DNA from: Caenimonas aquaedulcis
GTDB lineage: Bacteria; Pseudomonadota; Gammaproteobacteria; Burkholderiales; Burkholderiaceae_C
Assembly (NCBI RefSeq): GCF_015831345.1
Contig: NZ_JADWYS010000001.1
Coordinates: 1,312,118-1,376,117 of the forward strand
Direction of reading: 5' to 3'
Length of the DNA: 64,000 bases
Shown here in pieces: positions 869 to 15,330 of this stretch. Position 1 is the first letter of the stretch. Every line of letters starts with the position of its first letter. The position numbers and the translations under genes were made by a program. The notes below the pieces were generated by a model that ran no database searches, had not been told where the DNA came from, and saw nothing but the letters and a program-made list of their open reading frames with translations.

Positions 869-2635
869 ATGATTCGTCTTCTGTGGGGCGTCGCCGTCGC
901 GCTGCTCGCATCGGTCTGCCACGCTCAGACGCCGGACGACGGCACGTGGACGATGGCGGCGCGCAACTTCGAGGGGCACCGCTTCAGCGGCCTGGACCAG
1001 GTGACGCCGGGCAACGTGGCGCAGCTGAAGGTCGCCTTCACCTTCGACACCGGCGTGCCCAAGGGGCAGGAGTCGATCACCCTCGTCGCGGACAACACGA
1101 TGTTCATCGTGGGCCCGTTTCCGAACGTGCTGTTCGCGCTCGACCTCACGAAGCCGGGTGCGCCGCTCAAATGGAAGTTCGACCCCAAGCCCGACGCGAG
1201 TTCGCAGGGCGTCGCCTGCTGCGATTTGGTAAACCGCGGCGCCGCCTACGCCGACGGCCGCGTCTTCTTCAACACGCTGGACAACCAGACGCTGGCGGTG
1301 GATGCGAAAACCGGGGCGGAGCTGTGGCGCGCGAAGCTGGGGGACATCAAGCTCGGCGAGAGCATGACGATGGCGCCGCTGGTGGTGAAGAACAAGGTGC
1401 TGGTGGGCAACAGCGGCGGCGAATTCGGCGTGCGCGGCTGGCTCGCGGCATTGGACGCGGCCACCGGCAAGGTGCTGTGGCGCGCGTACAGCACCGGCCC
1501 GGACAAGGACGTGCTCATCGGCCCGAACTTCAAGCCCTACTACGCCTCCGACCGCGGCGCCGACCTGGGCGTGAAGACCTGGCCGCCGGACGCATGGAAG
1601 ATCGGCGGCGGGACGGTGTGGGGCTGGCTCACCTACGACCCCGTGCTGGACCTCCTGTACTACGGCACCGCCAACCCCGGCCCCTGGAACCCGGAGCAGC
1701 GCCCCGGGGACAACAAGTGGACGTCCGGCATCTTCGCGCGCAAGCCCGACACCGGCGAAGCGGTGTGGTTCTACCAGTTCAGCCCGCACGACCTGCACGA
1801 CTACGACGGGGTCAACGAGAACGTGCTCGTCGACACGCCCATCGCGGGCGCGAACCGCAAGGTCCTGCTCCACCCGGACCGCAACGGCTACATGTATGTG
1901 ATCGACCGCGCCACCGGGCAGGTGCTGTCGGCCAACCCCTTCGTGCACGTGACGACCTCCAGCGGCGTGGACCTTTCCACCGGCGCGCTGCGCTACAACC
2001 CGCAGAAGGACCCGCGCGCCGGCGAGACCGTGCGCAGCATCTGCCCCGCATCGCCGGGCGCGAAGGACTGGCAGCCTTCGGCCTGGTCGCCGCGCACGAA
2101 GCTGCTCTACGTCCCGCACCAGAACCTCTGCCAGGACACGGTGACGGGCACGGCGAGCTACATCGCGGGCACGCCCTACGTGGGCCTCGAGCAGAAGATC
2201 TACGCGGGCCCGGGCGGCCACCGCGGCCTCTTCACCGCCTGGGACCCGGTGGCCGGCAAGAAGGCCTGGCAGGTCGAGGAGCACTTCCCGGTGTGGAGCG
2301 GTGCGCTCGCGACGGCCGGCGACCTCGTCTTCTACGGCACCATGGACGGCTGGTTCAAGGCGCTCGACGCGCGCAGCGGCAAGCTGCTCTGGCGCTTCAA
2401 GACCGACTCCGGGATCATCGGCCAGCCGATGTCCTATCGCGGCCCGGACGGCAGGCAGTACATCGCGGTGATGGCGGGCGTGGGCGGCTGGGCCGGCGCC
2501 GTGGTCTCGGGCAGCATGGACACGCGCGACGCGACGGGCGCCAGCGGCTTCGCCAATGCCATGCGCGACCTGCAGGCCGCGACGAAGGCGGGCAGCAAGC
2601 TGTACGTGTTCGCGCTGCCGGAGGGCACGCGATGA
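869..2635 (+). CDS. xoxF: PQQ-dependent alcohol dehydrogenase, lanthanide-type (XoxF-like)
   Basis: Soluble periplasmic quinoprotein alcohol dehydrogenase of 588 residues with a signal peptide (cleavage near CHA-Q at 19) and no fused cytochrome domain. It has the family hallmarks: vicinal cysteines C117-C118 in VACCDLVNRG, the GNSGGEFGVRG motif (E185), TANPGPWN (N269) and the catalytic aspartate D311 in HDLHDYDG. D313, two residues after the catalytic Asp, is the residue that in XoxF, ExaF and PedH enzymes completes the lanthanide site; calcium enzymes (MxaF) have Ala there. E185/N269/D311/D313 match the SolV XoxF ligands (Glu172, Asn256, Asp299, Asp301) in order and spacing. Substrate (methanol, ethanol or another alcohol) cannot be read from sequence. 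The gene overlaps xoxJ by 4 bp and leads a cytochrome c/oxidase operon, its likely electron outlet. Confidence 0.88.
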   Translation: MIRLLWGVAVALLASVCHAQTPDDGTWTMAARNFEGHRFSGLDQVTPGNVAQLKVAFTFDTGVPKGQESITLVADNTMFIVGPFPNVLFALDLTKPGAPLKWKFDPKPDASSQGVACCDLVNRGAAYADGRVFFNTLDNQTLAVDAKTGAELWRAKLGDIKLGESMTMAPLVVKNKVLVGNSGGEFGVRGWLAALDAATGKVLWRAYSTGPDKDVLIGPNFKPYYASDRGADLGVKTWPPDAWKIGGGTVWGWLTYDPVLDLLYYGTANPGPWNPEQRPGDNKWTSGIFARKPDTGEAVWFYQFSPHDLHDYDGVNENVLVDTPIAGANRKVLLHPDRNGYMYVIDRATGQVLSANPFVHVTTSSGVDLSTGALRYNPQKDPRAGETVRSICPASPGAKDWQPSAWSPRTKLLYVPHQNLCQDTVTGTASYIAGTPYVGLEQKIYAGPGGHRGLFTAWDPVAGKKAWQVEEHFPVWSGALATAGDLVFYGTMDGWFKALDARSGKLLWRFKTDSGIIGQPMSYRGPDGRQYIAVMAGVGGWAGAVVSGSMDTRDATGASGFANAMRDLQAATKAGSKLYVFALPEGTR

Positions 2636-3432
2636 TGCGACGGCTGCTGGCCGCCGCATGCATGGCGGCGCTCGCATCGGGGGCCGCGGCCGGGGAACTG
2701 CCGGCCACCTTGCGCGTCTGCGCCGACCCCGACAACCTGCCCTACTCCCATGCGAACGGCAGCGGCTTCGAGAACCGGATCGCGCAGCTCGTGGCCGACG
2801 ACCTGAAGCTGCCGCTGGAGTACGAGTGGCTGCCAGACCGCCGCGGCTTCGTGCGCAAGACACTGGGCGCACGGCTGTGCGACGTGATCATGGGCGTGCC
2901 CGCGGGCTTCGAACGCGCGATGACCACGCGGCCCTACTACCGCTCCAGCTACGTGGTGGTGGACCATGCGGGCGGTGCCCCCATCGCATCCTTCGACGAC
3001 CCGCGCCTCGCGCGCATGCGCCTGGGCGTCCAGCTGATCGGCAACGACCTCGCGGCCTCGCCGCCCGGCCAGGCGCTCGCGCGCCACGGGCAGACGGACA
3101 ACGTGCGCGGCTTCGCCGTGCCCGGCGAGGAGCCGGCGGCGGCGCGCATCGTGCACGCGATCGAGTCGGGCGAGCTCGACGGCGCGATCGTCTGGGGGCC
3201 GCAGGCGGGCTTCTTCGCCGCGCACTCGCGCGTGCCGCTGCGCGTCCACGCCATCGCCGCGCCGGCAGGCCCGGGAAGCCAGCCCTTCGCGTACGACATC
3301 GCGATGGGCGTGCGCCGAGGCGACCGCGAGCTGCAGGCCGCGCTCGACGGTGTGATCGAGCGCCGCCAGGCGGACATCGCGCGCATCCTCGCGGACTACG
3401 CCGTGCCGCAGGTCGCAGGGGCCGCGCGATGA
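2632..3432 (+). CDS. xoxJ: XoxJ/MoxJ-like periplasmic binding protein of quinoprotein dehydrogenases
   Basis: 266-residue secreted protein of the solute-binding fold found beside PQQ methanol dehydrogenases (MxaJ/XoxJ family). A signal peptide ends near GAAAG. The mature N-terminus LRVCADPDNLPYSHANGSGF is the diagnostic motif of the family, followed by GFENRIAQLVADDL and CDVIMGVPAGFERAMTTRPYY. In XoxJ the fold is thought to help activate or mature the dehydrogenase rather than feed an ABC transporter, and no ABC permease is present here. The ATG lies inside the xoxF stop (ATGATG), giving a 4-bp overlap. The downstream cytochrome c gene overlaps in the same way, so xoxF, xoxJ and the cytochrome are translated as a set. 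Confidence 0.85.
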   Translation: MMRRLLAAACMAALASGAAAGELPATLRVCADPDNLPYSHANGSGFENRIAQLVADDLKLPLEYEWLPDRRGFVRKTLGARLCDVIMGVPAGFERAMTTRPYYRSSYVVVDHAGGAPIASFDDPRLARMRLGVQLIGNDLAASPPGQALARHGQTDNVRGFAVPGEEPAAARIVHAIESGELDGAIVWGPQAGFFAAHSRVPLRVHAIAAPAGPGSQPFAYDIAMGVRRGDRELQAALDGVIERRQADIARILADYAVPQVAGAAR

Positions 3433-4001
3433 AACGCATCGTGCTGGCCTGCCTGCTCGTGCTGCTGGCATCGGGCTGCGAGCGCGAGGCGCGGCGCTTC
3501 ACCACGCCCGCGAACAACGAGACGGCGGCCGAATCGGCGCAGCGCCTGGGAACGCTGCAGCCCGCCGTGCCGCTTGCCGGCGGCGTCAGGCAGGCCAAGG
3601 CGAACGTGAGCCCCTACGAGGAGAACGCGTTCTCCGTGAACCAGGGCAAGCGCCTGTACCGCTGGTACAACTGCAACGGCTGCCATGGCAACGGTGGCGG
3701 CGGCATCGGCCCGGCGCTCATGGACAGCCAGTGGAAATACGGCAGCGACCCGGCCTCGATCTTCGCGACCATCACGCAGGGACGTCCGCAAGGCATGCCC
3801 TCTTTCGGCGGCCACATCCCGGACGACCAGGTGTGGCAGATCGTGGCCTACGTGCGCTCGATGAGCGGCCAGCTGCGCAAGGACGTCGCGCCCAGCCGGG
3901 GCGATTCGCTGTACCCCGGCAACCCGGAGAACGCGCGGCCGAAGGAAACGCCGCAGCCCGACAAGTCGCAGCCGTCCCGGCCGCCGGGAGCGCCCTCATG
4001 A
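3429..4001 (+). CDS. Lipoprotein mono-heme cytochrome c
   Basis: 190-residue class I cytochrome c. It has a lipoprotein signal peptide with lipobox LASGC (C17), so it is probably anchored to a membrane facing the periplasm. One heme site CNGCH lies at residues 82-86, and the sixth ligand is probably M123 in RPQGMPSFGG. The C-terminus is a low-complexity Pro/Lys/Ser tail. Its position directly between the XoxF/XoxJ pair and the cytochrome oxidase genes, with 4-bp overlaps on both sides, makes it the likely electron carrier from the dehydrogenase to the oxidase (an XoxG-like role). That role is inferred from context; the sequence itself only shows a c-type cytochrome. Confidence 0.85.
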   Translation: MKRIVLACLLVLLASGCEREARRFTTPANNETAAESAQRLGTLQPAVPLAGGVRQAKANVSPYEENAFSVNQGKRLYRWYNCNGCHGNGGGGIGPALMDSQWKYGSDPASIFATITQGRPQGMPSFGGHIPDDQVWQIVAYVRSMSGQLRKDVAPSRGDSLYPGNPENARPKETPQPDKSQPSRPPGAPS

Positions 4002-5065
4002 CGCGCATGCTGGAGCGCGCGCTCTACATCGCCGCGCTCGCGCTCGCGGTGTTGTGCGTCACCTCGCTCGCGCAGTATGCGATGGCCGCGACGCCGATCC
4101 CGCAGGCGCCGCACGATGCGCTCCACGCCATGGGCCCGCAGGCGGGCCACATCGTCGACCTCTGGCGCGTCATGCTCTGGACCTGCTCGCTGGTGTTCGG
4201 CGCCATCCTCGCGGCGCTGCTCTTCGCGATCCTTCGCGCGCCGCGCGCGGACGCCACCGCCGCGCCCGACCTGTCGGCCGTCGACCGGGCCGAGCCGCGC
4301 GTGCGGCGCAGCGTGGCGAGCGCGGCGGTCGCGTCCGCGCTGCTGCTGTTCGCGCTGGCGCTCGCGAGCGTCTTCACCGACCGCGCGCTGGCGCGCCTGT
4401 CGCTCGCCGGCGCGGTGAACATCGAAGTCACCGCCCACCAGTGGTGGTGGTCGGCGCGCTACCTGGACGGCGGCCACGCGGACACCTTCGTGACGGCCAA
4501 CGAGATCCACATCCCGGTCGGCCGCCCCGTCAACCTCCAGCTCAAGGCCGACGACGTGATCCACAGCCTGTGGGTGCCCAGCCTCGCGGGCAAGAAGGAC
4601 CTCATCCCCGGCCGCAGCGCCTCGATGCAGTTCCGCGCGGACACGCCCGGCCCCTACCGCGGCCAGTGCGCGGAATTCTGCGGATTCCAGCACGCGCTGA
4701 TGGGCCTGCTCGTGGTCGCGGACCCCCCCGCGCAATACGAGGCGTGGGTGCAGGCGCAGCGCACGCCGCCCGCGCCGCCGACCGGCGCGAAGGCGATCCG
4801 CGGGCAGCAGTTGTTCCAGTCGACGAGCTGCGCGATGTGCCATGCCATCGGCGGCACGATCGCGAGCGCCCAGCATGCGCCGGACCTCACGCATCTCGCG
4901 AGCCGCTCGACCCTTGCCGCGGGGACGCTCGCGAACACGCCGGCGCAGCTGGCCGCCTGGATCGCGGACCCGCAAAAGCACAAGCCCGGCGTGAACATGC
5001 CGTCCACGCCGATCTCCAGGGACGACCTGGATGCGCTCGTTGCCTACCTGGAGACCCTGAAATGA
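3998..5065 (+). CDS. coxB: Cytochrome c oxidase subunit II with fused cytochrome c domain (caa3-type)
   Basis: 355-residue subunit II of a heme-copper oxidase. Two N-terminal membrane helices (about 53-80 and 106-125) precede the periplasmic CuA domain. CuA ligands are complete: H189 (VIHSLWVP) and C224-x-E226-x-C228-x3-H232-x2-M235. The electron-entry tryptophans are in the QWWW motif (149-151). A C-terminal cytochrome c domain carries CAMCH (278-282), so this is a caa3-type subunit able to take electrons from a small cytochrome c or directly from a dehydrogenase. A further hydrophobic stretch at residues 7-30 may be a signal peptide. It overlaps the upstream cytochrome gene and the downstream ctaD by 4 bp each. 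Confidence 0.92.
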   Translation: MTRMLERALYIAALALAVLCVTSLAQYAMAATPIPQAPHDALHAMGPQAGHIVDLWRVMLWTCSLVFGAILAALLFAILRAPRADATAAPDLSAVDRAEPRVRRSVASAAVASALLLFALALASVFTDRALARLSLAGAVNIEVTAHQWWWSARYLDGGHADTFVTANEIHIPVGRPVNLQLKADDVIHSLWVPSLAGKKDLIPGRSASMQFRADTPGPYRGQCAEFCGFQHALMGLLVVADPPAQYEAWVQAQRTPPAPPTGAKAIRGQQLFQSTSCAMCHAIGGTIASAQHAPDLTHLASRSTLAAGTLANTPAQLAAWIADPQKHKPGVNMPSTPISRDDLDALVAYLETLK

Positions 5066-7023
5066 CGCACGCCACGCTCGAAGCGTCGATGGCGGCCGAT
5101 CGCGTCCGCATGAAGGACGGCCCGCCCGCCGGGTCGCGCGAGGCGCGCGCGCTGGACGTGACCTGGGACGACCCGCCGGGCCTGCTCGGGTGGTTCTGCG
5201 CCATCAACCACAAGACGATCGCCAAGCGATTCATCGTCACCACGCTCGGGTTTTTCGCGGCGGGCGGGCTGATCGCCGCGGTGATGCGCATGCAGCTGTC
5301 CCGGCCGGAGAACACGCTGGTCGGGCCGGACATGTACAACCAGCTCTTCACGATGCACGGCACGACGATGATGTTCCTCTTCGCCGTGCCGGTGATGCAG
5401 GCCGTGGCGATCTACCTCGTGCCGCTCATGGTGGGTTCGCGCACCGTCGCCTTCCCGCGGATGAACGCCTTCGCCTACTGGATCTTCCTGTTCGGCGGGC
5501 TGATGCTGTACGCGGCCTTCTTCGTCAACTCCGGCCCCGATGCGGGGTGGTTCGCCTACGTGCCGCTCGCGGGGCCCGACTACTCGCCGGGCAAGCGGGT
5601 CGATTTCTGGGCGCAGATGATCACCTTCACCGAGCTCTCGGGGCTCATCGAGGCGATCGTGATCATCGCCACCGTCTTCAAGATGCGCGCGCCGGGCATG
5701 ACGCTCAACCGCATGCCGCTGCTGGTGTGGTCCAACCTGGTCACCTCGTTCATGGTGCTGTTCGCGATGCCCGCCGTGATGCTCGCGAGCACGGCGCTCA
5801 TCCTCGACCGGCTGGTGGGCACGCATTTCTACAACCCGGCCGAAGGCGGCGACCCGCTGCTGTGGCAGCACCTCTTCTGGTTCTTCGGCCACCCGGAGGT
5901 GTACCTGATCTTCATTCCCGGCCTGGGCTTCCTCTCCTCGGTCATCCCGACCTTCTCGCGCCGCCCGATCTACGGCTACACCGCGATGGTGCTGTCGCTG
6001 GTGGCCACCGGCTTCCTCGCCTTCGGCCTGTGGGTGCACCACATGTTCGCCACCAACCTGCCGGAACTGGGCAAGGCCTTCTTCACCGCGATGAGCATGC
6101 TGATCGCCATCCCGAGCGCGCTGCAGATCTTCTGCTGGATCGCGACGATGTGGACGGGGCGCCTGAACCTGAAGACGCCCATGCTCTTCGTGCTGGCCTT
6201 CTTCTTCATCCTCGTCCTGGGCGGCCTCACCGGCCTCATGCTCGGGGCGGTGCCGCTGGACCTGCAGGTGCACGACACCTACTTCGTCGTCGCCCACCTG
6301 CACTACGTGCTGATCGGCGGCGCAGTGTTTCCGCTGTTCGGCGCCTTCTACTACTGGTACCCGAAGATCAAGGGCCGGATGATGGGCGAGGCGCTGGGCA
6401 AGGCCTCGTTCTGGCTGATGTTCATCGGCTTCAACGCCGCGTTCTTCCCCATGCACTGGCTCGGGCTGCACGGCATGCCGCGCCGCGTGTACACCTACCA
6501 GGCCGGCATGGGCTGGGACGGGATGAACCTGCTGTCCACCCTCGGCGCCTTCACCTTCGCCGCCGGCGTGTTCCTCTCGCTGGTGAACGCGGTCGCCAGC
6601 GCGCGGCGCGGCGCGGTCGCGGGCGCCGACCCCTGGGGCGCCGGCACGCTGGAATGGTCGATCGCGTCGCCGCCCCCGCCCTGCAACTTCCACGCGATCC
6701 CCACCGTGCACGGGCGGGACCCGCTCTGGCAGCCCGCGCCCGGGGGCGCGCCTGCGCGCGTGAGCGGGCTGGCCGTGAACGTGCGCGAAGTGCTGGTCAC
6801 CAGCGTCATCGATGCGCTGCCCGACCACCGCATGACATCGCCCAATCCGTCGCCGTGGCCCTTCCTCACCGCCTTGGCGACCACCGTGCTGTTCATCGGC
6901 TCGATCTTCACGCCCTGGGCCGTGGTGTGGGCCGCGATTCCCGCGACGATCGCCACCATCCTCTGGTTCTGGCCCAAGCACAAGGACAACTCCGAGGACC
7001 TCGCACTGGAGAAGGCGCCATGA
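5062..7023 (+). CDS. ctaD: Cytochrome c oxidase subunit I, divergent proton channels
   Basis: 653-residue catalytic subunit with about 12 core helices plus two C-terminal ones. Redox ligands are intact: heme a H99 and H414, heme a3 H412, CuB H277, H326 and H327, with the cross-linked tyrosine Y281 and E279 in FGHPEVY. The proton channels are unusual. The D-channel entrance aspartate of classical A-type oxidases (the Asp before MAFPR) is T128 here (TVAFPRMN), the second Asn of the PRxNN motif is A136, and the K-channel lysine (GIK in classical enzymes) is Q355 (PSALQIF). This suggests altered proton pumping while O2 reduction is retained. The gene sits between coxB and ctaE with 4-bp overlaps. 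Confidence 0.93.
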   Translation: MTHATLEASMAADRVRMKDGPPAGSREARALDVTWDDPPGLLGWFCAINHKTIAKRFIVTTLGFFAAGGLIAAVMRMQLSRPENTLVGPDMYNQLFTMHGTTMMFLFAVPVMQAVAIYLVPLMVGSRTVAFPRMNAFAYWIFLFGGLMLYAAFFVNSGPDAGWFAYVPLAGPDYSPGKRVDFWAQMITFTELSGLIEAIVIIATVFKMRAPGMTLNRMPLLVWSNLVTSFMVLFAMPAVMLASTALILDRLVGTHFYNPAEGGDPLLWQHLFWFFGHPEVYLIFIPGLGFLSSVIPTFSRRPIYGYTAMVLSLVATGFLAFGLWVHHMFATNLPELGKAFFTAMSMLIAIPSALQIFCWIATMWTGRLNLKTPMLFVLAFFFILVLGGLTGLMLGAVPLDLQVHDTYFVVAHLHYVLIGGAVFPLFGAFYYWYPKIKGRMMGEALGKASFWLMFIGFNAAFFPMHWLGLHGMPRRVYTYQAGMGWDGMNLLSTLGAFTFAAGVFLSLVNAVASARRGAVAGADPWGAGTLEWSIASPPPPCNFHAIPTVHGRDPLWQPAPGGAPARVSGLAVNVREVLVTSVIDALPDHRMTSPNPSPWPFLTALATTVLFIGSIFTPWAVVWAAIPATIATILWFWPKHKDNSEDLALEKAP

Positions 7024-7652
7024 CGACCGCCGCCACGCCCGCCTCCCGCAGCGACGCCACGCTGGACGTCTCGGGGCTGCCCAGCTTCCGCTTCTCGCAC
7101 CACAGCCCGATGTGGTGGGGCACGCTGGGCATGATCGCGATCGAAGGAACCGTCTTCGCGCTCGCGATCGCGAGCTACTTCTACCTGCGCATGCACTCGA
7201 ACACGTGGCCGATGTTCGCGCTGCCGCCCGATCTCTTCTGGGGCACGCTCAACACCGCCGTGATGCTGGGCAGCCTTGTTCCCAACCAGCTCGCCAAGAG
7301 CGCGAGCGAACGGCTCGACCTGCCGGCCGTGCGGCTCTGGCTGTCGGTGGCCCTCGTCTTCGCTTTCCTCTTCCTCGGCGTGCGCGTGATGGAGTTCGCC
7401 TCCCTGAACGTGCGCTGGGACAGCAACGCGTACGGCTCCATCGTCTGGACCCTGCTCGGCCTGCACACCACGCACCTCATCACCGACACGATCGACACGA
7501 CGGTGCTCGACGTCCTGTTCTTCACCGGACCGCTGGACGGGCGCCGCTTCGTGGACGTGAGCGAGAACTGCTTCTACTGGTACTTCGTCGTGGGCTCCTG
7601 GCTGCCCATCTACCTCGTCATCTACTGGGGCGCGCGCCCCTGGCCGTCATGA
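7020..7652 (+). CDS. ctaE: Cytochrome c oxidase subunit III family protein
   Basis: 210-residue membrane protein of the subunit III (CtaE/CyoC) family. About five hydrophobic segments are visible, starting after an N-terminal polar leader of about 30 residues: WWGTLGMIAIEGTVFALAIA, the AVMLGSLVP region, LWLSVALVFAFLFLGV, IVWTLLGLHTTHLITD and FVVGSWLPIYLVIYW. The GLHTTHLI and EFASLNVRWDSNAYGS segments resemble the conserved subunit III helices. It is shorter than the seven-helix mitochondrial type, as is common in bacterial caa3 clusters. It overlaps ctaD upstream and a small membrane protein gene downstream by 4 bp each, consistent with a single oxidase operon. Confidence 0.85.
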   Translation: MTTAATPASRSDATLDVSGLPSFRFSHHSPMWWGTLGMIAIEGTVFALAIASYFYLRMHSNTWPMFALPPDLFWGTLNTAVMLGSLVPNQLAKSASERLDLPAVRLWLSVALVFAFLFLGVRVMEFASLNVRWDSNAYGSIVWTLLGLHTTHLITDTIDTTVLDVLFFTGPLDGRRFVDVSENCFYWYFVVGSWLPIYLVIYWGARPWPS

Positions 7653-7990
7653 GGATCTGGCTCGGCCTCCTCGCGGCGCCAAGCGTCGCGCTCGCGTGCC
7701 AGGCGATCCTGTTCGCGCTGGCGACGCCCGCGTGCAGCAGCCAGTCGCGCGTCGAGCTGCACGCCGTCGCCGCGGCAAGCCTCGCGCTCACCCTCGCCTT
7801 CACCGTCATCGCGCGCGGCGGCTGGGCCTCGCACGGCGGGGGCATGACCCAGGCCGAGGTCGACCATGCCGACGGCGGCACGGTCCGGGCGTTCCTCGCC
7901 GCGGCCGCCACGGCGGTCGCCGCCATCTCCGCCTTCACCGTGCTCGCCATGTGGGCCGTCGTCGGAGTCCTCTCGCCGTGCGCGCAATAG
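7649..7990 (+). CDS. Small three-helix membrane protein in oxidase operon
   Basis: 113 residues, not recognised as a named family. Three hydrophobic stretches are visible: an N-terminal one (LGLLAAPSVALACQAILFAL), a second around residues 41-56 (ASLALTLAFTVI), and a third near the C-terminus (FLAAAATAVAAISAFTVLAMWAVVGVL). A short polar loop (GGGMTQAEVDHADGG) separates the last two. It lies between ctaE and ctaG, overlapping ctaE by 4 bp and ctaG by 13 bp, so it is probably an accessory or small subunit of this oxidase. That assignment rests only on context. Confidence 0.7.
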   Translation: MRIWLGLLAAPSVALACQAILFALATPACSSQSRVELHAVAAASLALTLAFTVIARGGWASHGGGMTQAEVDHADGGTVRAFLAAAATAVAAISAFTVLAMWAVVGVLSPCAQ

Positions 7991-8865
7991 CGGCCGCATG
8001 CCTGCTCGCGCCGGTGGGCGCCTGGGCGCATGCGCCGGAATCGCCCGCCGCCGGCCCCTCGTGGACGGCATGGAATACGCAGCCCTGGCTGCTGTTCCTC
8101 CTGGCCGTCTCGCTGCTCTTCTACGCCGCCGGTTTGCTTCGCCTGTGGCGCCACGCGGGCGCGGGCCATGGCATCCCCGTTCGGCAGGCCGCCTCGTTCG
8201 CGGCCGGCTGGCTCGCGCTCGTCGCCGCGCTCGTGTCGCCGCTCGACGCGATGGGCTCGCTGCTCTTTTCCGCGCACATGGTGCAGCACGAGATGCTCAT
8301 GATCGTTGCCGCGCCGCTGCTTGTGCTCGGCCGGCCGCTCGCCGCGTGGACCTGGGCGCTGCCCGCGGTGTACCGGATGCGGCTGCCGGCCCTCGTTCGC
8401 TCGCGCTCGCTCGCCTGGGCGTGGGACGCGATCACGCAGCCCGTCTCCGCCTGGGCGCTGCACGCGATCGCACTGTGGGCGTGGCACGCCCCGCAGCTGT
8501 TCGAGGCCGCCTTGCGCAGCGAAGGGCTGCACGTGCTGCAGCACGCGTCCTTCTTCGTCACGGCCCTGCTCTTCTGGTGGGCGGTGCTGGGACCCGATGC
8601 GCGGTCCCGCCGCGCGGGCCTCGCGATGGTGCTGCTGTTCACGACCATGATGCACACCGGCGCGCTGGGTGCGCTACTCGCGCTTGCACCGACTCCGTGG
8701 TATCCGCCCTACGTGGACGCCGCGGTGGCGCTGGGCATCGACCCGGTGCAGGACCAGCAGCTCGGCGGCCTCGTGATGTGGGTGCCCGGCAGCGTGGCGT
8801 ACCTCGTGGTGGGCCTGCAGGTGATCGCGAACCTCCTCGGGCGCCGCGCGAAGGCGATGGCATGA
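7978..8865 (+). CDS. ctaG: CtaG-family cytochrome c oxidase assembly membrane protein (caa3_CtaG)
   Basis: About 295-residue polytopic protein of the caa3 CtaG family, needed in Bacillus for formation of active caa3 oxidase. I start it at GTG 7978, which gives a signal-like N-terminus (AACLLAPVGAWAHAPE) and overlaps the preceding gene by 13 bp; an earlier in-frame start would run deep into that gene. Six to seven helices follow. Conserved features include HMVQHEMLMIVAAPLLVLGRP, WAWHAPQLFEAAL with HVLQHASFF, and TPWYPPY near the C-terminus, with the repeated His residues expected for copper handling. It follows coxB-ctaD-ctaE as in other caa3 clusters. Confidence 0.88.
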   Translation: MRAIAAACLLAPVGAWAHAPESPAAGPSWTAWNTQPWLLFLLAVSLLFYAAGLLRLWRHAGAGHGIPVRQAASFAAGWLALVAALVSPLDAMGSLLFSAHMVQHEMLMIVAAPLLVLGRPLAAWTWALPAVYRMRLPALVRSRSLAWAWDAITQPVSAWALHAIALWAWHAPQLFEAALRSEGLHVLQHASFFVTALLFWWAVLGPDARSRRAGLAMVLLFTTMMHTGALGALLALAPTPWYPPYVDAAVALGIDPVQDQQLGGLVMWVPGSVAYLVVGLQVIANLLGRRAKAMA

Positions 8866-9278
8866 AAACCGCTGGCGTCGGCCTCGCCCTGGCGCTCGCG
8901 CTCGCGGGCTGCCATTCGCCGAAGAAACTGGCCGGGGCCGACGATCTGCACCGCGCCGCCCGCGACACCGCGAGCATCGCCCGCGAAAGCGCGCTCCTTG
9001 TCGACCAGGTCCAGCGCGGCCATGTCGGCGCCGACTACGTATGGGTCCATCAGCAGGCCCTGCAGGAGGACGCCCGGCGCGCGGCCGAGCCTTTGCACCG
9101 CGCGGCGCCGGACGCGCTGCGCGGGCTCCAGCAGCAGGTGGAGGCCGCGAGCGCCCGCCTGTCGGCCGGGCTGGAGCACACGCCGCTGGCCACTGCGGGC
9201 CCGGACGAACTCGCGCGGCTCGCGCAGGTTTTCGCGCAGGCCGGTGCGCAGGCCGCCGCACTGCGGGGGGACAAGTGA
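8862..9278 (+). CDS. Small lipoprotein of unknown function
   Basis: 138 residues with a lipoprotein signal peptide (LALAGC, lipid-attachment C17) and a mature part that is almost entirely charged/Ala-rich and predicted helical (RAARDTASIARESALLVDQV, then QLQQQVEAASARL-like segments), possibly a helical bundle or coiled coil. No named domain recognised. It overlaps ctaG by 4 bp and the NRAMP-like transporter by 4 bp, so it is translated with them. A periplasmic, membrane-anchored accessory to the oxidase or the metal transporter is possible but unproven. Confidence 0.7.
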   Translation: MKTAGVGLALALALAGCHSPKKLAGADDLHRAARDTASIARESALLVDQVQRGHVGADYVWVHQQALQEDARRAAEPLHRAAPDALRGLQQQVEAASARLSAGLEHTPLATAGPDELARLAQVFAQAGAQAAALRGDK

Positions 9279-10507
9279 ACATCGGCGAGCTCGCGCTGGG
9301 CATCATGACCGCGCTCGGCGGCTTCGTGGACATCGGCGAGCTGGTGTTCGCGATCGAGGCGGGCGCGAAGTTCGGCTTCGCGCTGCTGTGGGTCGTCGTG
9401 CTCGGGACGGTGGGCATCGCGATCTTCGGGGAGATGTCGGGCCGCATCGCGGCCGTCCTGAAAAAGCCCGCCTTCGAGGCCGTGCGCGACCGCTTCGGTT
9501 TCGGCCCGTCGCTGGGCGTGCTGGTCGCGTCCAACCTCGTCAACATCCTCACCTGCGCTGCGGAGGTGGGCGGCCTCGCGATCATCCTGCAGCTCGTCTT
9601 CGGCGCCAACTACCGGCTCATGCTGCTCGCGGCCGCGGGCCTCCTGCTGCTCACCGTGTTCCTGCTGCCCTTCCGCTGGATCGAGCGCGTCTTCGGCCTG
9701 GCGGGCCTCACCTTGCTGGTCTACGCGGTCGCGGCGGTGAAAGCGGGGCCCGACTGGGGCGACGTGGCGCGGGGGCTCGTGCCGCAGCTGCCCGCACCCG
9801 GGATGCCGGGCCTGCCGGTCTACGCCTACTACATCGTGGGCCTGCTCAGCTCGATCCTCATGCCCTACGAGATCTACTTCTATTCCTCCGGCGGAATCGA
9901 GGACAAGTGGACGCCGAAGGACCTGCCCGTCAACAAGCTCACGGCGGGCGTCGGCTTCACGCTGGGCGGCCTGCTCACGATGGCGCTCATCGTCGTCGGC
10001 GCCGCCGTATTCCTGCCGCAGCAGGTCGATCCGCAGCGCCTCAGTTCGGTGGTGATGGGCGCATCGGTCCCGCTCGGCCACGTCGGGTTTCTCTTCGCCC
10101 TGGCCGGCATCTTCTTCGCGGTGGGCGGCGCGGCGGTGGAGACGGCGCTCTCCGCCGGCTACAACGTCGCGCAGTTCTTCGGCTTGCCCTGGGGCAAGAG
10201 CCACCAGGCGCGCGAAGTGCCGCTCTTCACCGTCTGCTGGATGGCCGCGATCGTGCTGGGAACGGCCATCGCGATGGGCGGCGCGAATCCCATCCAGGTC
10301 GTCGAATATTCGGTGATCTTCGCCGTCGTGGTGCTGCCGTTCACCTACTACCCGATCCTCAAGCTCGCGGACGACCGGGACGTCATGGGCCGGCACGTCA
10401 ACTCGCCCGTGATCCGCGTGCTGGGCTGGGCCTACTTCGCGCTCATCTGCGCGGTCGCGCTCGCGGCCATCCCGCTGCTCATCGCGACGCACATGGGTCA
10501 GGCCTGA
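9275..10507 (+). CDS. NRAMP-family divalent metal transporter, divergent metal-site motifs
   Basis: 410-residue polytopic protein (about 11 helices) of the NRAMP/SLC11 fold, beginning at a GTG that overlaps the lipoprotein stop (GTGA). In classical NRAMPs the metal sits between DPGN in helix 1 and MPHN in helix 6. Here helix 1 reads GGFVDIGELVFA (D19, E22) and helix 6 reads SSILMPYEIYFYSS (M196, E199). The Asp and the metal-selecting Met are kept, but both Asn positions are Glu and the His is Tyr. This gives a site with three carboxylates. Classical substrates are Mn2+ and Fe2+. Its place at the end of an operon headed by a lanthanide-type dehydrogenase raises other options (see findings). 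It converges with the DUF1275 gene, overlapping by 10 bp. Confidence 0.8.
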   Translation: MNIGELALGIMTALGGFVDIGELVFAIEAGAKFGFALLWVVVLGTVGIAIFGEMSGRIAAVLKKPAFEAVRDRFGFGPSLGVLVASNLVNILTCAAEVGGLAIILQLVFGANYRLMLLAAAGLLLLTVFLLPFRWIERVFGLAGLTLLVYAVAAVKAGPDWGDVARGLVPQLPAPGMPGLPVYAYYIVGLLSSILMPYEIYFYSSGGIEDKWTPKDLPVNKLTAGVGFTLGGLLTMALIVVGAAVFLPQQVDPQRLSSVVMGASVPLGHVGFLFALAGIFFAVGGAAVETALSAGYNVAQFFGLPWGKSHQAREVPLFTVCWMAAIVLGTAIAMGGANPIQVVEYSVIFAVVVLPFTYYPILKLADDRDVMGRHVNSPVIRVLGWAYFALICAVALAAIPLLIATHMGQA

Positions 10508-11241
10508 AGCTTGCGCAGGTCGGCCAGCAGCGGCATCGCGGAAATCGCCAGCAGCACGAGGACAACCGGGAGCACGGCGGCATAGCCGATGGACTTGAAC
10601 GCCAGCGCGCCGGCCACCGCGCCACCCAGGAAGAGGCCGAGGATGATGGCGAGCACGGCCAGGCGCTCGCGATCGGCGCGCACCGGCCCCGCCACGGCAT
10701 GACCGCGGTTCACATACAGCAACCTGCCCAGCTCGATGCCGAGGTCGGTGACGACACCGGTCATGTGCGTGGTGCGGATCTCCGCCCGCGAGATCTTGGT
10801 GACGATCGCGTTCTGCAAGCCCATGGTGAAGCAGAGCAGGAGCACGGTGCTCGGGACGAACAGTTCGACGAGCGTGTCGAGGTGCGCGCCCAGCACCCCG
10901 AAGGCGAGCAGCAGCAGGGCCTCGACGAACACCGGCAGCGCGAACTCGCCGTGCATGCCGCGCCGCCGGGCCCAGTTGACCAGCAGGGCCGTGGTGGCCG
11001 CGCCGGCGATGAAGGCGGCGAGAAAGGCGACGCCCGCGAGCACCAGCCCGATGCGGCCCAGCACGAGGTCGTCGGCCATGGCCGAGACGATGCCCGTCAT
11101 GTGGGAGGTGTAGCGCTGGACGGCGAGGAACCCGCCCGCGTTGATCGCGCCGGCCACGAATGCCAGCAGGCCCCCCAGTTGCCGGTTGGTGCGCTGGGTG
11201 CGCTGCCGGCCGGTGAGGTTGGCGAGGAACACATGGGGCAT
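10498..11241 (-). CDS. DUF1275 (YoaK family) membrane protein
   Basis: 247-residue membrane protein with about six helices. The N-terminus (LGGLLAFVAGAINAGGFLAV, then RYTSHMTGIVS) and the later GLQNAIVTKIS...RTTHMTGVVTDLGIELG are the two diagnostic halves of DUF1275/YoaK proteins, whose transport substrate is unknown. I chose ATG 11241 (MPHVFLANLTG) as start; the frame stays open upstream but without family similarity. It is convergent with, and overlaps by 10 bp, the NRAMP-like gene, and is divergent from the GH2 gene. I see no link to either operon. Confidence 0.85.
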   Translation of the reverse strand: MPHVFLANLTGRQRTQRTNRQLGGLLAFVAGAINAGGFLAVQRYTSHMTGIVSAMADDLVLGRIGLVLAGVAFLAAFIAGAATTALLVNWARRRGMHGEFALPVFVEALLLLAFGVLGAHLDTLVELFVPSTVLLLCFTMGLQNAIVTKISRAEIRTTHMTGVVTDLGIELGRLLYVNRGHAVAGPVRADRERLAVLAIILGLFLGGAVAGALAFKSIGYAAVLPVVLVLLAISAMPLLADLRKLQA

Positions 11242-11261
11242 GGAAGGCTTATTGTGCTCCC

Positions 11262-11281
11262 CCTGCGGCGCGCGCCGCAGG
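11262..11281. repeat. Perfect 20-bp palindrome between divergent genes
   Basis: The sequence from 11262 to 11281 (left half CCTGCGGCGC) is its own exact reverse complement. It lies 20 bp upstream of the DUF1275 start and 31 bp upstream of the GH2 start, the only intergenic space between these divergent genes. It could be a dimeric regulator operator or a stem-loop. It is pure GC/CG-rich apart from one A/T pair, so chance in this high-GC genome is not negligible. Confidence 0.5.
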
Positions 11282-11312
11282 ACAGGACCACGGCCTACAC
11301 GTCCACCCGGCC

Positions 11313-13175
11313 ATGCTGCATACGATGGTCCGAGCACCCACTCCACATCCCGGAACCAATTTGCAAATCCCCCCCGAGCAGCGCGACGCGTCCGCTGCGC
11401 ACGCCTACCCCCGGCCGCAACTGGAGCGCGAACACTGGCAGTCGCTCAATGGTTCGTGGCGCTTCCATTTCGACGACGCGTGCGAATTCACGTCTGCCGC
11501 AGAGCCGCACGAGTGGCCGTTGGACATCACCGTGCCGTTCCCGCCCGAATCGGCGGCCAGCGGCATCGGCGACACCGGATTCCATCCTCGATGCTGGTAC
11601 CAGCGCGACTTCGAGCTGATGCCGGCGGACGACCGCGTGATCCTGCGCTTCGGCGCGGTGGACTATGCGGCGCACGTGTGGGTCAACGGGCATCTCGTCG
11701 CCGCCCACGAAGGCGGGCACACGCCGTTCTGGGCGGACATCACGGACGTGCTCGACCCCTCGGGCCGGCAGACCGTCACCGTGCGCGCCGATGACGACCC
11801 GCACGAGCTGAACAAGCCGCGCGGCAAGCAGGACTGGCAGCTGGAGCCGCACCTCATCTGGTATCCGCGCACGAGCGGCATCTGGCAGACCGTCTGGATA
11901 GAGCGCGTCGGGCACACCTACATCGACAAGATCCGCTGGACGCCGAAGCTCGAGGGCTTCGCCATCGGGCTGGAAGCGCGCCTGCGCGGCGACTTGGGCG
12001 GCGACCTGTCGCTGGAGCTCGAACTGCGGCACGGGGAGCGCCTGCTCGCGCGCGACCGCTACCAGGTGGTCGACGGCGAAGTCGACCGCTCCATCGCGCT
12101 GTCCGACCCCGGCATCGACGACTTCCGCAACGAGCTCCTGTGGAGCCCGGAGCGTCCGACGCTGCTGGACGTGGAGCTGAAGCTGCTGCGCGACGGGAAG
12201 GTGGTGGACCGGGCGAAGTCGTACACCGCGCTGCGCTCGGCCGCGGTGCTGCGCGACCGCTTCATGCTCAACGGGCGCCCCTACGTGCTGCGCATGGTGC
12301 TCGACCAGGGCTACTGGCCCGACACCCTACTCGCCGCGCCGAGCGACGAGGCGCTCAGGCGCGACGTCGAGCTGGCCAAGGCGATGGGCTTCAACGGCGT
12401 GCGCAAGCACCAGAAGATCGAAGACCCCCGCTACCTCTACTGGGCCGACAAACTGGGGCTCATGGTGTGGGAGGAAATGCCCTCCGCCTATCGCTTCACG
12501 CGCACCGCGATCAAGCGCACCGTGCGCGAGTGGACCGAGGCGATCGACCGCGACTACAGCCACCCCTGCATCATCGTGTGGGTTCCCTTCAACGAGTCCT
12601 GGGGCGTGCCCGAGCTGCCCGTCGTGCAGGCGCACCGCCACGCCGTCGAGGCGCTCTACCACCTCACCAAGACGCTCGACCAGACCCGCGCGGTGATCGG
12701 CAACGACGGGTGGGAATCGTCCGCCACCGACATCATCGGCATTCACGATTACGACTCGAACCTGGAGCACATCCGCGAGCGCTACGGCGCGGGCGTGGAC
12801 CCCGAGAAGCTCTTCGACCGCCGCCGCCCGGGGGGGCGGGTGCTGACGCTGGACGGCCATCCGCACCGCGGCCAGCCGATCATCCTCACCGAATTCGGCG
12901 GCATCGCCTTCCAGAAGGAGCCGCAGCCCGGCGACGCGAAGATCTGGGGCTACACCCAGGTGACCGACGACGAAACCTTCGCCCAGCTCTACGAGCAGCT
13001 GCTGCGGGCCATCATCGACACCGCTCTCTTCAGCGGCTTTTGCTACACGCAGTTCGCCGACACCTTCCAGGAGGCCAACGGCCTGCTCTATGCCGACCGC
13101 ACGCCCAAGATCCCCCTGCAGCGGATCAAGGCCGCCACGTCGCGCTCGCGCAACTGGATTCCCGGCGGCGTGTGA
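11313..13175 (+). CDS. Glycoside hydrolase family 2 protein (beta-galactosidase/glucuronidase-like)
   Basis: 620-residue cytoplasmic (no signal peptide) GH2 enzyme with the jelly-roll sugar-binding domain (about 25-190, [10 protein letters not shown] and [20 protein letters not shown]), an immunoglobulin-like domain (about 190-300) and the TIM barrel. Catalytic residues are visible: acid/base E428 in VPFNESWGV and nucleophile E527 in [11 protein letters not shown]2 enzymes cleave beta-galactosides, glucuronides or mannosides; the linked galT and galK favour galactose release. The start at 11313 is uncertain: M5 is also possible and no clear ribosome binding site is visible. The stop overlaps the galT start (TGATG), so the three genes form one operon. 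Confidence 0.88.
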
Positions 13176-14260
13176 TGTACACGCTCGAACTCACCAAGCC
13201 CGACGGCCGCAGGATGTCCCTGTACTCGCGCGCGCCGATCGATCCGTCGCTGGTCGCGCCCAGCCCGGCGGGGGACGCGCCGGCCGGCACGTCGCACCTG
13301 CGCTGGCATCCGCTGCGCGGCGAATGGATCACCTACGCCGCGCACCGGCAGAACCGCACCTTCCTGCCCCCGCCCGAATACAACCCGTTGCGGCCGACTT
13401 CGCCCGGCCAGCCGCCGAGCGAAGTGCCGCAAGGCGCCTGGGACGTCGCGGTGTTCGACAACCGGTTTCCGTCGCTGGGCGGCGACGCCGGAGAGCCGCC
13501 GGCGCTCATCGTGCCGACGGCGCGGGCCGACGGGCACTGCGAAGTCGTCGTGTTCACTCAGGATGCGAACGCATCGCTGGGGTCCCTGCCGCTGTCGCAC
13601 GTGGAGTTGCTGCTGCAGGTCTGGGGCGATCGCACCGCGCGCCTCGGGGCGCGCGAGGACATCCGCTATGTGCTGCCGTTCGAGAACCGCGGCGCGGAAG
13701 TGGGCGTGACGCTGCATCATCCGCACGGCCAGATCTACGCCTATCCTGTGGTGCCCCCGGTGCCCGCGCGCATGCTCGCCCTGGCTGCGCAGCACTTCGC
13801 ACGCGAAGGGTGTGGACCGCTCGAACAGCACATCGAAGCCGAACGCCGCGACGGCCGGCGCATGTTGTACGAGGGCGAGCACGCGGTGGCGTTCGTGCCC
13901 ATCTGCGCGCGCTATCCCTACGAAGCCTGGGTGGCGCCCATCCGTGCGTGCGCGAGTTTCAACGATCTCGGCGACGCCGAGCGGCGCGACCTCGCACGGG
14001 CCCTCAAAACCGTGCTGCTCAAGTACGACGGGCTGTGGGAGCGGCCCCTTCCCTACCTCATGGCGTGGTACCAGGCGCCCACCGACGGCGCGGCGCATCC
14101 GGAATCTCACCTGCACGCCGAGCTCTGGCCGCCGTACCGGACGCGCGACCGGCTCAAGTACCTCGCGGGCACGGAACTCGCCGCGGGCTTTTACGCCATG
14201 GATGCGTTGCCGGAAGACAAGGCGCGCGAATTGCAGCAGGTGGACGTGGTGCTGGCATGA
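13175..14260 (+). CDS. galT: Galactose-1-phosphate uridylyltransferase
   Basis: 361 residues. GalT exchanges UMP between UDP-glucose and galactose-1-phosphate, giving UDP-galactose and glucose-1-phosphate (Leloir pathway, cytoplasm). The active-site triad His-Pro-His is at 182-184 in [15 protein letters not shown], where H184 is the nucleophile that becomes uridylylated. The N-terminal half has [21 protein letters not shown] and FDNRFPSL. The C-terminal half has YPYEAWVAP and the second His cluster in [11 protein letters not shown]. Zn-binding residues are less clear. It is flanked by the GH2 gene (1-bp overlap) and galK (4-bp overlap). The UDP-galactose it makes is the substrate of the UDP-galactopyranose mutase 3 kb away. 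Confidence 0.93.
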
Positions 14261-15330
14261 GCGCGCACCCCATGGAGGCGGCGGCACAGGCGCCCGGGCG
14301 TGTGAACCTGCTGGGCGAGCACACCGACTACAACGACGGCTTCGTGCTGCCCATCGCGATCTCGCAGGCCACGCACGTGCGGATGCGCCGCAACGGCACG
14401 TCGCGCTTCCACCTGCATTCCGCGGAGCTCGGCGCGCGTGCGGCGTTCACGCTGGGCGAAGCGCCGGCGGAGCATTTCGCGAGCTACGTGTATGGCTGTG
14501 TCATGCTCGCGGCCGCCCCGGGGGGCGAAGTGCCCGGCCTCGACATCGAAGTGAGTTCGCAGGTGCCGATGGGCGTGGGCCTGTCCTCCAGTGCCGCGCT
14601 CGAAGTCGCCACCCTGCGGTGCCTGCGCGAACTGCTGGGACTCTCCCTGGACGACGTCGAGATCGCGCAGCTCGCGCAGCGCGTGGAGATCGAATTCGCG
14701 CACGTGCGCTGCGGCATCATGGACCAGATGGCGTCCAGCCTGGCCGCCACCGATCGCGCCGTGCTCATCGACACGCGCTCGCTGGAGCGGCGCGACGTGC
14801 CCCTGCCCGCCGGCGCGTCGGTGCTGGTGCTCGATAGCGGCGTGGCGCGCAAGTTGGCGGCCAGCGGCTACAACCAGCGGCGCGCCGAATGCGAAGCCGC
14901 GGCGGCGCAACTGGGCGTTGCATCGCTTCGCGACGTGCGCTCCGTGAGCGATGCCGCCGCGCTGCCCGATCCCTTGTGCCGCCGCGTGCACCACGTCGTG
15001 ACGGAGAACGCCCGCGTGATGCAGGCCGCGCGAACAAGGGACCCCGTTCTTTTCGGCGAATTGATGAATGCGTCGCACGCGAGCCAGCGCGACGACTACG
15101 AAGTGTCGACGCCGGAAGTCGACATGCTCGTCCGGCTGCTGCAAGACGAGCCGGGCGTGTACGGCGCGCGGCTCACGGGCGGTGGATTCGGCGGCGCCTG
15201 CGTCGCGCTGTGCCGCAGCGACCGCATGGCGGACATCTCGGCGTCCGTACTCGCGCACTACGCGGCCGCCGGGCTCTCGGGCCGGCAGCTCGTGCCTGCT
15301 CAGGCCGCCTCTTCGACCTCGGCGAGATAG
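14257..15330 (+). CDS. galK: Galactokinase
   Basis: 357-residue GHMP-family kinase that phosphorylates galactose at C1 with ATP. The galactokinase signature [19 protein letters not shown] is at about 14-32 (E20, H21, D23 sugar contacts), the GHMP ATP loop [11 protein letters not shown] follows near residue 110, and the C-terminal [14 protein letters not shown] motif is present. The catalytic Asp is probably in the GIMDQMAS segment. The ATG overlaps the galT stop by 4 bp. The 3' end overlaps the convergent GH1-RmlD gene by 31 bp, so the two opposing transcripts share their 3' coding ends. Confidence 0.93.

Follow-up and report, generated by a model that had tools for sequence, protein, structure and literature searches.

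An Nramp-related transporter with an acidic predicted metal site and a coupled lipoprotein gene at the end of a XoxF/caa3 operon in Caenimonas aquaedulcis

How do lanthanides get across the inner membrane of XoxF bacteria that lack a Lut- or Ped-type ATP-binding cassette (ABC) transporter? This question is raised by a 64,000-nt stretch of the Caenimonas aquaedulcis genome (NZ_JADWYS010000001.1, positions 1,312,118 to 1,376,117; hereafter the window), in which a gene for an NRAMP-fold transporter closes an operon headed by a XoxF-type dehydrogenase. A sequence-only reading had noted that the classical DPGN and MPHN motifs appear here as DIGE and MPYE, and had suggested that a three-carboxylate site (D19, E22 and E199) might serve rare-earth ions. 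We tentatively regard the protein as a metal importer of the inner membrane that belongs to an uncharacterised branch of Nramp-related proteins, is produced together with a small lipoprotein outside the cytoplasm and, in this lineage, is attached to the end of the XoxF/caa3 operon; by sequence and setting, its substrate is most likely a divalent metal, probably a transition metal, and its module one related to stress or respiration.

The transporter and its predicted metal site

The reading frame translates into 410 residues without internal stops and matches Pfam Nramp at 174.2 bits (cut-off 29.8, E 5e-51). DIGE occupies residues 19–22 and MPYE residues 196–199, as the sequence-only reading had it. 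A phmmer alignment to the Deinococcus radiodurans chain pairs D19 with the D and E22 with the N of DPGN, M196/Y198/E199 with the M/H/V of MPHV, and E97 with the conserved Glu of transmembrane helix 3 (TM3). The corresponding DraNramp residues are D56, N59, M230, H232, V233 and E134. Because they align with the D and N of DPGN, D19 and E22 are assigned to known coordinating positions, and this part of the proposed three-carboxylate site stands, with E199 kept as a candidate. Relative to canonical Nramp/MntH proteins, the Met of MPH is retained, while DPGN has become DIGE (N to E) and the proton-path residues are replaced: both TM6b histidines (H232 and H237 of DraNramp) by Y198 and Y203, and the TM3 Asp by C94. 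Across seven aligned sequences (alignment A1, 44–100% identity), D19, I20 and M196–G206 (MPYEIYFYSSG) do not vary, and residue 22 is always E or D; by this alignment, conservation of the DIGE/MPYE site exceeds chance.

An AlphaFold2 model built from seven sequences (mean predicted local distance difference test score, pLDDT, 71.9; below 50 for residues 1–18 and 197–202) has the NRAMP fold, with breaks in helix 1 at about residues 15–19 and in helix 6 at 196–199. The model's confidence is moderate overall and lowest around the site itself, so we took the site residues from the sequence alignment.

Among solved structures, the Nramp-related Mg2+ transporter EleNRMT (7qia/7qji) is nearest in both sequence and fold (VIA-align, 24% identity); canonical Nramps and the plant Al3+ transporter NRAT (8ont) follow closely. 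EleNRMT also lacks the proton-path histidines, and passages of PMC8806188 describe its transport as uncoupled from protons; its site, however, reads DxxG-TxxA/T in those passages against DxxE-SxxM in the window protein, which thus lacks the NRMT signature. DraNramp and BfraNramp share with our protein the fold, the D of DPGN, the Met of MPH and the TM3 Glu, and in the passages seen of PMC12873925 the TM3 Glu of BfraNramp binds Mn2+ in a transport that is not proton-coupled. Compared at the level of general description, not of single G-motif groups, the window protein fits the Nramp-like proteins treated there that lack both the canonical site and the proton path. NRAT resembles it as an idea, in using added negative charge to accommodate a trivalent ion, but neither the DxxN-AxxT site nor the TM3 Asp reported for NRAT in passages of PMC8806188 and PMC10115441 is present (E22, M196 and, at the Asp position, T93); Actinobacterial TPYE relatives do share AxxT with NRAT. 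According to passages of PMC8806188, the soft-ligand Met has been replaced in NRATs of the Al3+ type as well as in NRMTs of the Mg2+ type.

Relatives, partner genes and the association with XoxF

Six relatives were found by scanning the named genome contigs. At E 1e-60, profile A1 detected members in 16/249 Gemmatimonadota-type genomes, in 11/296 Actinobacteria-type genomes (labels following loci L002 and L005) and in 6/398 genomes from the phylum of the window: the Caenimonas genome itself plus five genomes of one genus. A plasmid collection gave 311 matching records at 1e-5, mostly below 30% identity among the rows listed, and we inspected 14 of the top 22 loci; the viral contigs searched held no relative. 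In a 53-row tree, 38 rows form one branch (100/99), composed of an xPYE clade (18 rows, 100/99) and a SPYL clade (20 rows, 100/100), with canonical, NRMT-like and DDDPSG groups outside. The 38 rows exclude same-locus duplicates (L008–L010, L012, L036, L053, L123), the two-frame fragment L063 and plasmid loci. The window protein has the GG[FI]x[DE]xG pattern on helix 1 and falls inside xPYE, in a nine-row subclade (100/100) that keeps Met at position 196; this position is mostly Thr in the other xPYE rows and Ser in the SPYL rows. The same genome has one further NRAMP, of type GAADDDPSGIATYS/SPYLFFWQ. At the Paraburkholderia sabiae locus L164 (13917–15196), the NRAMP reading frame is split in two pieces.

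One relative, L002 (JAQBPX010000019.1), is filed under Gemmatimonadetes and is 85% identical to the window protein. Its operon correlates better in tetranucleotide composition with the window's betaproteobacterial genus (0.82–0.89) than with the other contigs of its own metagenome-assembled genome (MAG; 0.70–0.75), so the contig may be mis-binned, and we doubt that it is an independent Gemmatimonadota occurrence. XoxF-linked NRAMP loci of Gemmatimonadota number 8/17 with L002 and 7/16 without it.

The coupled lipoprotein gene of the sequence-only reading was recovered, and similar genes accompany many relatives. A small open reading frame (ORF) with a lipobox lies upstream of the NRAMP in 33 of 51 rows by pattern, and by eye also in L001, L065, L067, L079, L080 and L083, where its start or offset had escaped the pattern; L001 and L064 are one locus entered twice. 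A 4-nt RTGA overlap is found in all 51 rows having the helix 1 motif, yet start codons are often followed by an A, and several rows (e.g. L068, L071, L073, L150–L152 and L154) have no lipoprotein-like ORF ending at the overlap; we therefore counted the ORF rather than the overlap. The lipoproteins are diverse. In profile comparisons, the alpha/Gemmatimonadota and Actinobacterial groups were linked at 96%, and the window's group was linked to the Actinobacterial one at 92% only with L005 and L006 included.

Downstream, a PRC-barrel-like gene lies within 1.5 kb of the NRAMP in 44 of 53 rows (four of which supplied the queries); the nine rows without one, representing eight loci, all belong to the window's subclade, and no PRC-like ORF was found in the whole window at E<=1. 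Two consecutive downstream genes are paralogues (hhalign 94%), and Pfam PRC scored above cut-off in two of the genes scanned. Annotated plasmids of Streptomyces, Mesorhizobium, Caballeronia and Rhizobium keep this order, with a small protein followed by the NRAMP and then two further small proteins, one of the two being annotated as PRC-barrel in three of these plasmids. The passages seen of PMC10875860 mention three small hypothetical proteins around the NRAMP, and we propose that these may correspond to the lipoprotein and the PRC-barrel-like pair; no description of a lipoprotein–NRAMP–PRC set was found in the open-access literature searched. Ferritin-like DUF892 genes lie near branch members L080, L071, L153, L161, L163 and L166, and DUF421 genes near L071 and L080, a general-stress-like setting.

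NRAMPs embedded in XoxF operons account for 10 of the 38 branch rows and occur in both clades, with at least seven changes of the linked state on the tree. Among 16 branch-carrying Gemmatimonadota genomes, 15 have a XoxF-like gene, against 50/233 non-carriers (Fisher p 6e-9, uncorrected for relatedness). Of 59 genomes sampled from the window's genus, 15 have a XoxF of at least 71% identity and four a close NRAMP relative; all four lie within the 15 (p 0.003, likewise uncorrected), and 11 of the 15 XoxF genomes have no close NRAMP relative. In five XoxF operons from other species of the genus, the 4–5 kb after CtaG contain no NRAMP, and in genomes G045 and G001 the lipoprotein–NRAMP pair and the XoxF operon lie on different contigs. 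In 14/14 further carrier genomes (11 Actinobacteria-type, L004 from Saccharibacteria, and also L006 and G198; 13 with xPYE members) XoxF was not found at 1e-20; several of these are incomplete MAGs, and the same query gave matches in other genomes. Presence cut-offs varied by set (1e-60, 1e-150, 1e-120, 1e-20 and 1e-100), and matches of 46–57% identity are perhaps not true XoxF. The association at branch level is real, and was first published by others, as passages of PMC10875860 attest.

The acidic site does not follow this association. XoxF was detected for 5 of the 16 rows with D19, [DE]22 and E199 and for 16 of the 22 remaining branch rows (Fisher p 0.02), opposite to the expected direction; with just two phylogenetically independent pairs, significance cannot be claimed. 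Among the ten XoxF-linked rows, three have the three-carboxylate site (the window, L001 and L002), one Gemmatimonadota row has DLGQ/MEYE (L037) and six have E-x-G-S/SPYL, so that seven of ten carry another site. The sequence-only reading had itself named such a survey of acidic-site NRAMPs against XoxF as its test, and the outcome speaks against it: with 11 of 16 three-carboxylate rows in genomes without detected XoxF, we rejected the site as a lanthanide marker.

The operon and related loci

The operon is tight, running from xoxF through the genes of Table 1 to the NRAMP, with adjacent genes overlapping by a few bases all the way. The claim that it is headed by a lanthanide-type enzyme is borne out: the best PDB matches of the head enzyme are lanthanide-type methanol dehydrogenases (4mae, 6oc5, 6dam), its DYDG aligns with their DYDG or DFDG, and the second Asp of DxD is present, which by closest structures and motif identifies it as XoxF-type. 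Relatives of the 113-aa membrane protein occupy the equivalent place in other operons, and a protein at the CoxIII/CtaG position is described in passages of PMC10875860.

Table 1 Features of the operon and its downstream boundary (window positions).
Feature	Position	Strand	Evidence
XoxF-type pyrroloquinoline quinone (PQQ)-dependent methanol/ethanol dehydrogenase	869..2635	+	TIGR03075 633 bits (NCBIfam); DYDG motif
XoxJ-like quinoprotein-associated periplasmic binding protein	2635..3432	+	TIGR03871 278 bits, cut-off 212 (scanned from 2638)
c-type cytochrome, probable lipoprotein, XoxG-like position	3429..4001	+	Pfam Cytochrome_CBB3
Cytochrome c oxidase subunit II (CoxII) with C-terminal cytochrome c (caa3 type)	3998..5065	+	Pfam COX2, Cytochrom_C
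Cytochrome c oxidase subunit I (CoxI)	5062..7023	+	TIGR02891 700 bits, cut-off 671
Cytochrome c oxidase subunit III (CoxIII)	7020..7652	+	Pfam COX3
113-aa membrane protein between CoxIII and CtaG	7649..7990	+	No match in Pfam / NCBIfam
Caa3_CtaG oxidase assembly protein (CtaG)	7978..8865	+	Pfam Caa3_CtaG 212 bits (scanned from 7990)
Small lipoprotein, 138 aa, lipobox ALAGC	8862..9278	+	GTGA 4-nt overlap with NRAMP start
Nramp-related transporter, 410 aa	9275..10507	+	Pfam Nramp; D19, E22, E97, M196, E199
DUF1275 gene, convergent, bounds operon downstream	10498..11346	-	Pfam DUF1275

Passages of PMC10875860 (2024) report XoxF3 clusters with an NRAMP in Acidobacteria and Gemmatimonadetes and suggest a lanthanide role. 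As in the window, those clusters combine XoxF, XoxG/J, CoxI–III, a protein of about 110 aa before CtaG, CtaG, the NRAMP and small proteins around it; likeness to the XoxF3 subclade rests on gene order. The window differs in its betaproteobacterial host (a same-genus MAG is labelled Ramlibacter) and its acidic xPYE site, and the passages seen contain neither a site analysis nor names for the small proteins. No PedB/Lut-type ABC ATPase exceeded the cut-off in the Caenimonas genome (best 186 of 302 bits), in line with the earlier remark that no other lanthanide transporter is visible, though 14 control genomes had none either and the search thus had no positive control. This genome (G000), rated 100% complete, has the XoxF operon, and the host may depend on external PQQ. 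Its best PqqE match reached 53.7 of 381 bits, below the NCBIfam cut-off, with all control genomes below it too and hence no positive control. Beyond the operon, the ORFs at 11313–15330 look by eye like a glycoside hydrolase of family 2, galactose-1-phosphate uridylyltransferase and galactokinase.

For 14 of 37 rows the fetched flanks include Cox genes; in four of these rows XoxF is absent from the flanks (L042 and three members of a set of five alphaproteobacterial-type genomes, a set in which only one genome has XoxF at 1e-100). Cox genes also lie near 4 of the 14 plasmid loci, two of these being closely related to each other. In those two, L162 (4313–6733) and L165 (4415–6835), an FdhF/YdeP oxidoreductase takes XoxF's place at the head of a cytochrome c–Cox–CtaG cluster beside the NRAMP set; at the latter locus, from Rhizobium sp. 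T1473, CoxI is in two pieces (8279–10315). Two Rhizobium plasmids have CorA close to the module. A plasmid of Mesorhizobium sp. B1-1-8 (L163; NZ_CP083957.1 443549–472667) holds pqqBCDE, the NRAMP set, XoxF and the oxidase within 30 kb, together with a substrate-binding protein with a PQQ-associated beta-propeller, an ABC ATPase and a permease; by gene content, this island looks like a transferable lanthanide-methylotrophy package, and it indicates that the NRAMP and a Ped/Lut-like transporter may occur side by side.

Candidate substrates and what they would mean

In the reading we favour, the ion, most likely a divalent transition metal such as Mn2+ or Fe2+, would be held between the breaks of helices 1 and 6 by D19, E22 and M196; E97 and E199 may contribute. 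Import is probably not proton-coupled, as in EleNRMT and BfraNramp, because the two TM6b histidines and the TM3 Asp are here Tyr, Tyr and Cys. The lipoprotein would deliver or gate the metal on the outer side, and the transporter would serve the oxidative, metal-rich respiratory module (XoxF, cytochromes c and caa3 oxidase) rather than XoxF alone. The retained M196, unlike the situation in NRATs and NRMTs, argues against a purely hard-ion substrate and for a transition metal. Several observations weigh against this explanation. The substrate assignment rests on one kept Met and on context; three added carboxylates are unusual among Mn2+/Fe2+ carriers, and E199 is no more than a candidate for facing the ion; position 196 is not Met in the SPYL sister clade, so substrates may differ within the branch. 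Furthermore, the fetched flanks, some of them short, lack a Cox gene in 23 of 37 rows, and with L005 and L006 left out the link of the window-type lipoproteins to the Actinobacterial group falls to 36% probability, their link to the alpha/Gemmatimonadota group being 63–77%.

An importer of Ln3+, which would move La–Nd out of the periplasm into the cytoplasm, to be sensed, stored or used in maturing XoxF, and would stand in for a Lut/Ped ABC system, is a minority reading that we find unlikely but still credible. The real branch-level association, with its recurrent embedding in XoxF operons of both clades and its co-occurrence in Gemmatimonadota and in the window's genus, speaks for it, as do the absence of a PedB-type ATPase over cut-off (a search without positive control) and the same idea in passages of PMC10875860; of the original rare-earth proposal, this much holds, while its argument from acidic-site chemistry fails. 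The XoxF genomes and operons of the genus without the NRAMP, the 14 carriers without detected XoxF and the retained Met count against it, and the Mesorhizobium island indicates that replacement of the ABC system is not required. Quite unlikely, in our estimate, is an importer of Mg2+ or another alkaline-earth ion, with acidic residues binding the hydrated ion: EleNRMT as closest structure, the acidic, polar site and the CorA genes of the two Rhizobium plasmids fit, but E22 and M196 stand in place of the NRMT signature, and a Met at that place is reported, in the literature passages seen, to select against alkaline-earth ions. It is just as improbable that the lipoprotein–NRAMP pair is a passenger, recently inserted behind CtaG and functionally unrelated to XoxF. 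The separate contigs in G045 and G001 and most of the XoxF operons read in the genus, which end without the pair, favour such an insertion, whereas the gene overlaps up to the NRAMP, and a neighbourhood that recurs in two clades and in the Acidobacteria of PMC10875860 (passages), oppose it. We consider very doubtful the bolder proposal that the lipoprotein–NRAMP(–PRC) set is a distinct kind of soil-bacterial metal importer, a secondary transporter fed by its own lipoprotein, whose XoxF-linked members in the two clades would be the first known non-ABC rare-earth importers.

These results mean that an acidic NRAMP site is unusable as a lanthanide marker. A sharper target for the question of lanthanide passage in XoxF bacteria is the coupled lipoprotein–NRAMP pair of Actinobacteria, Gemmatimonadota and Proteobacteria. 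Its two clades have different sites and each includes XoxF-linked and XoxF-free members, a contrast through which the question could be addressed by comparing four proteins.
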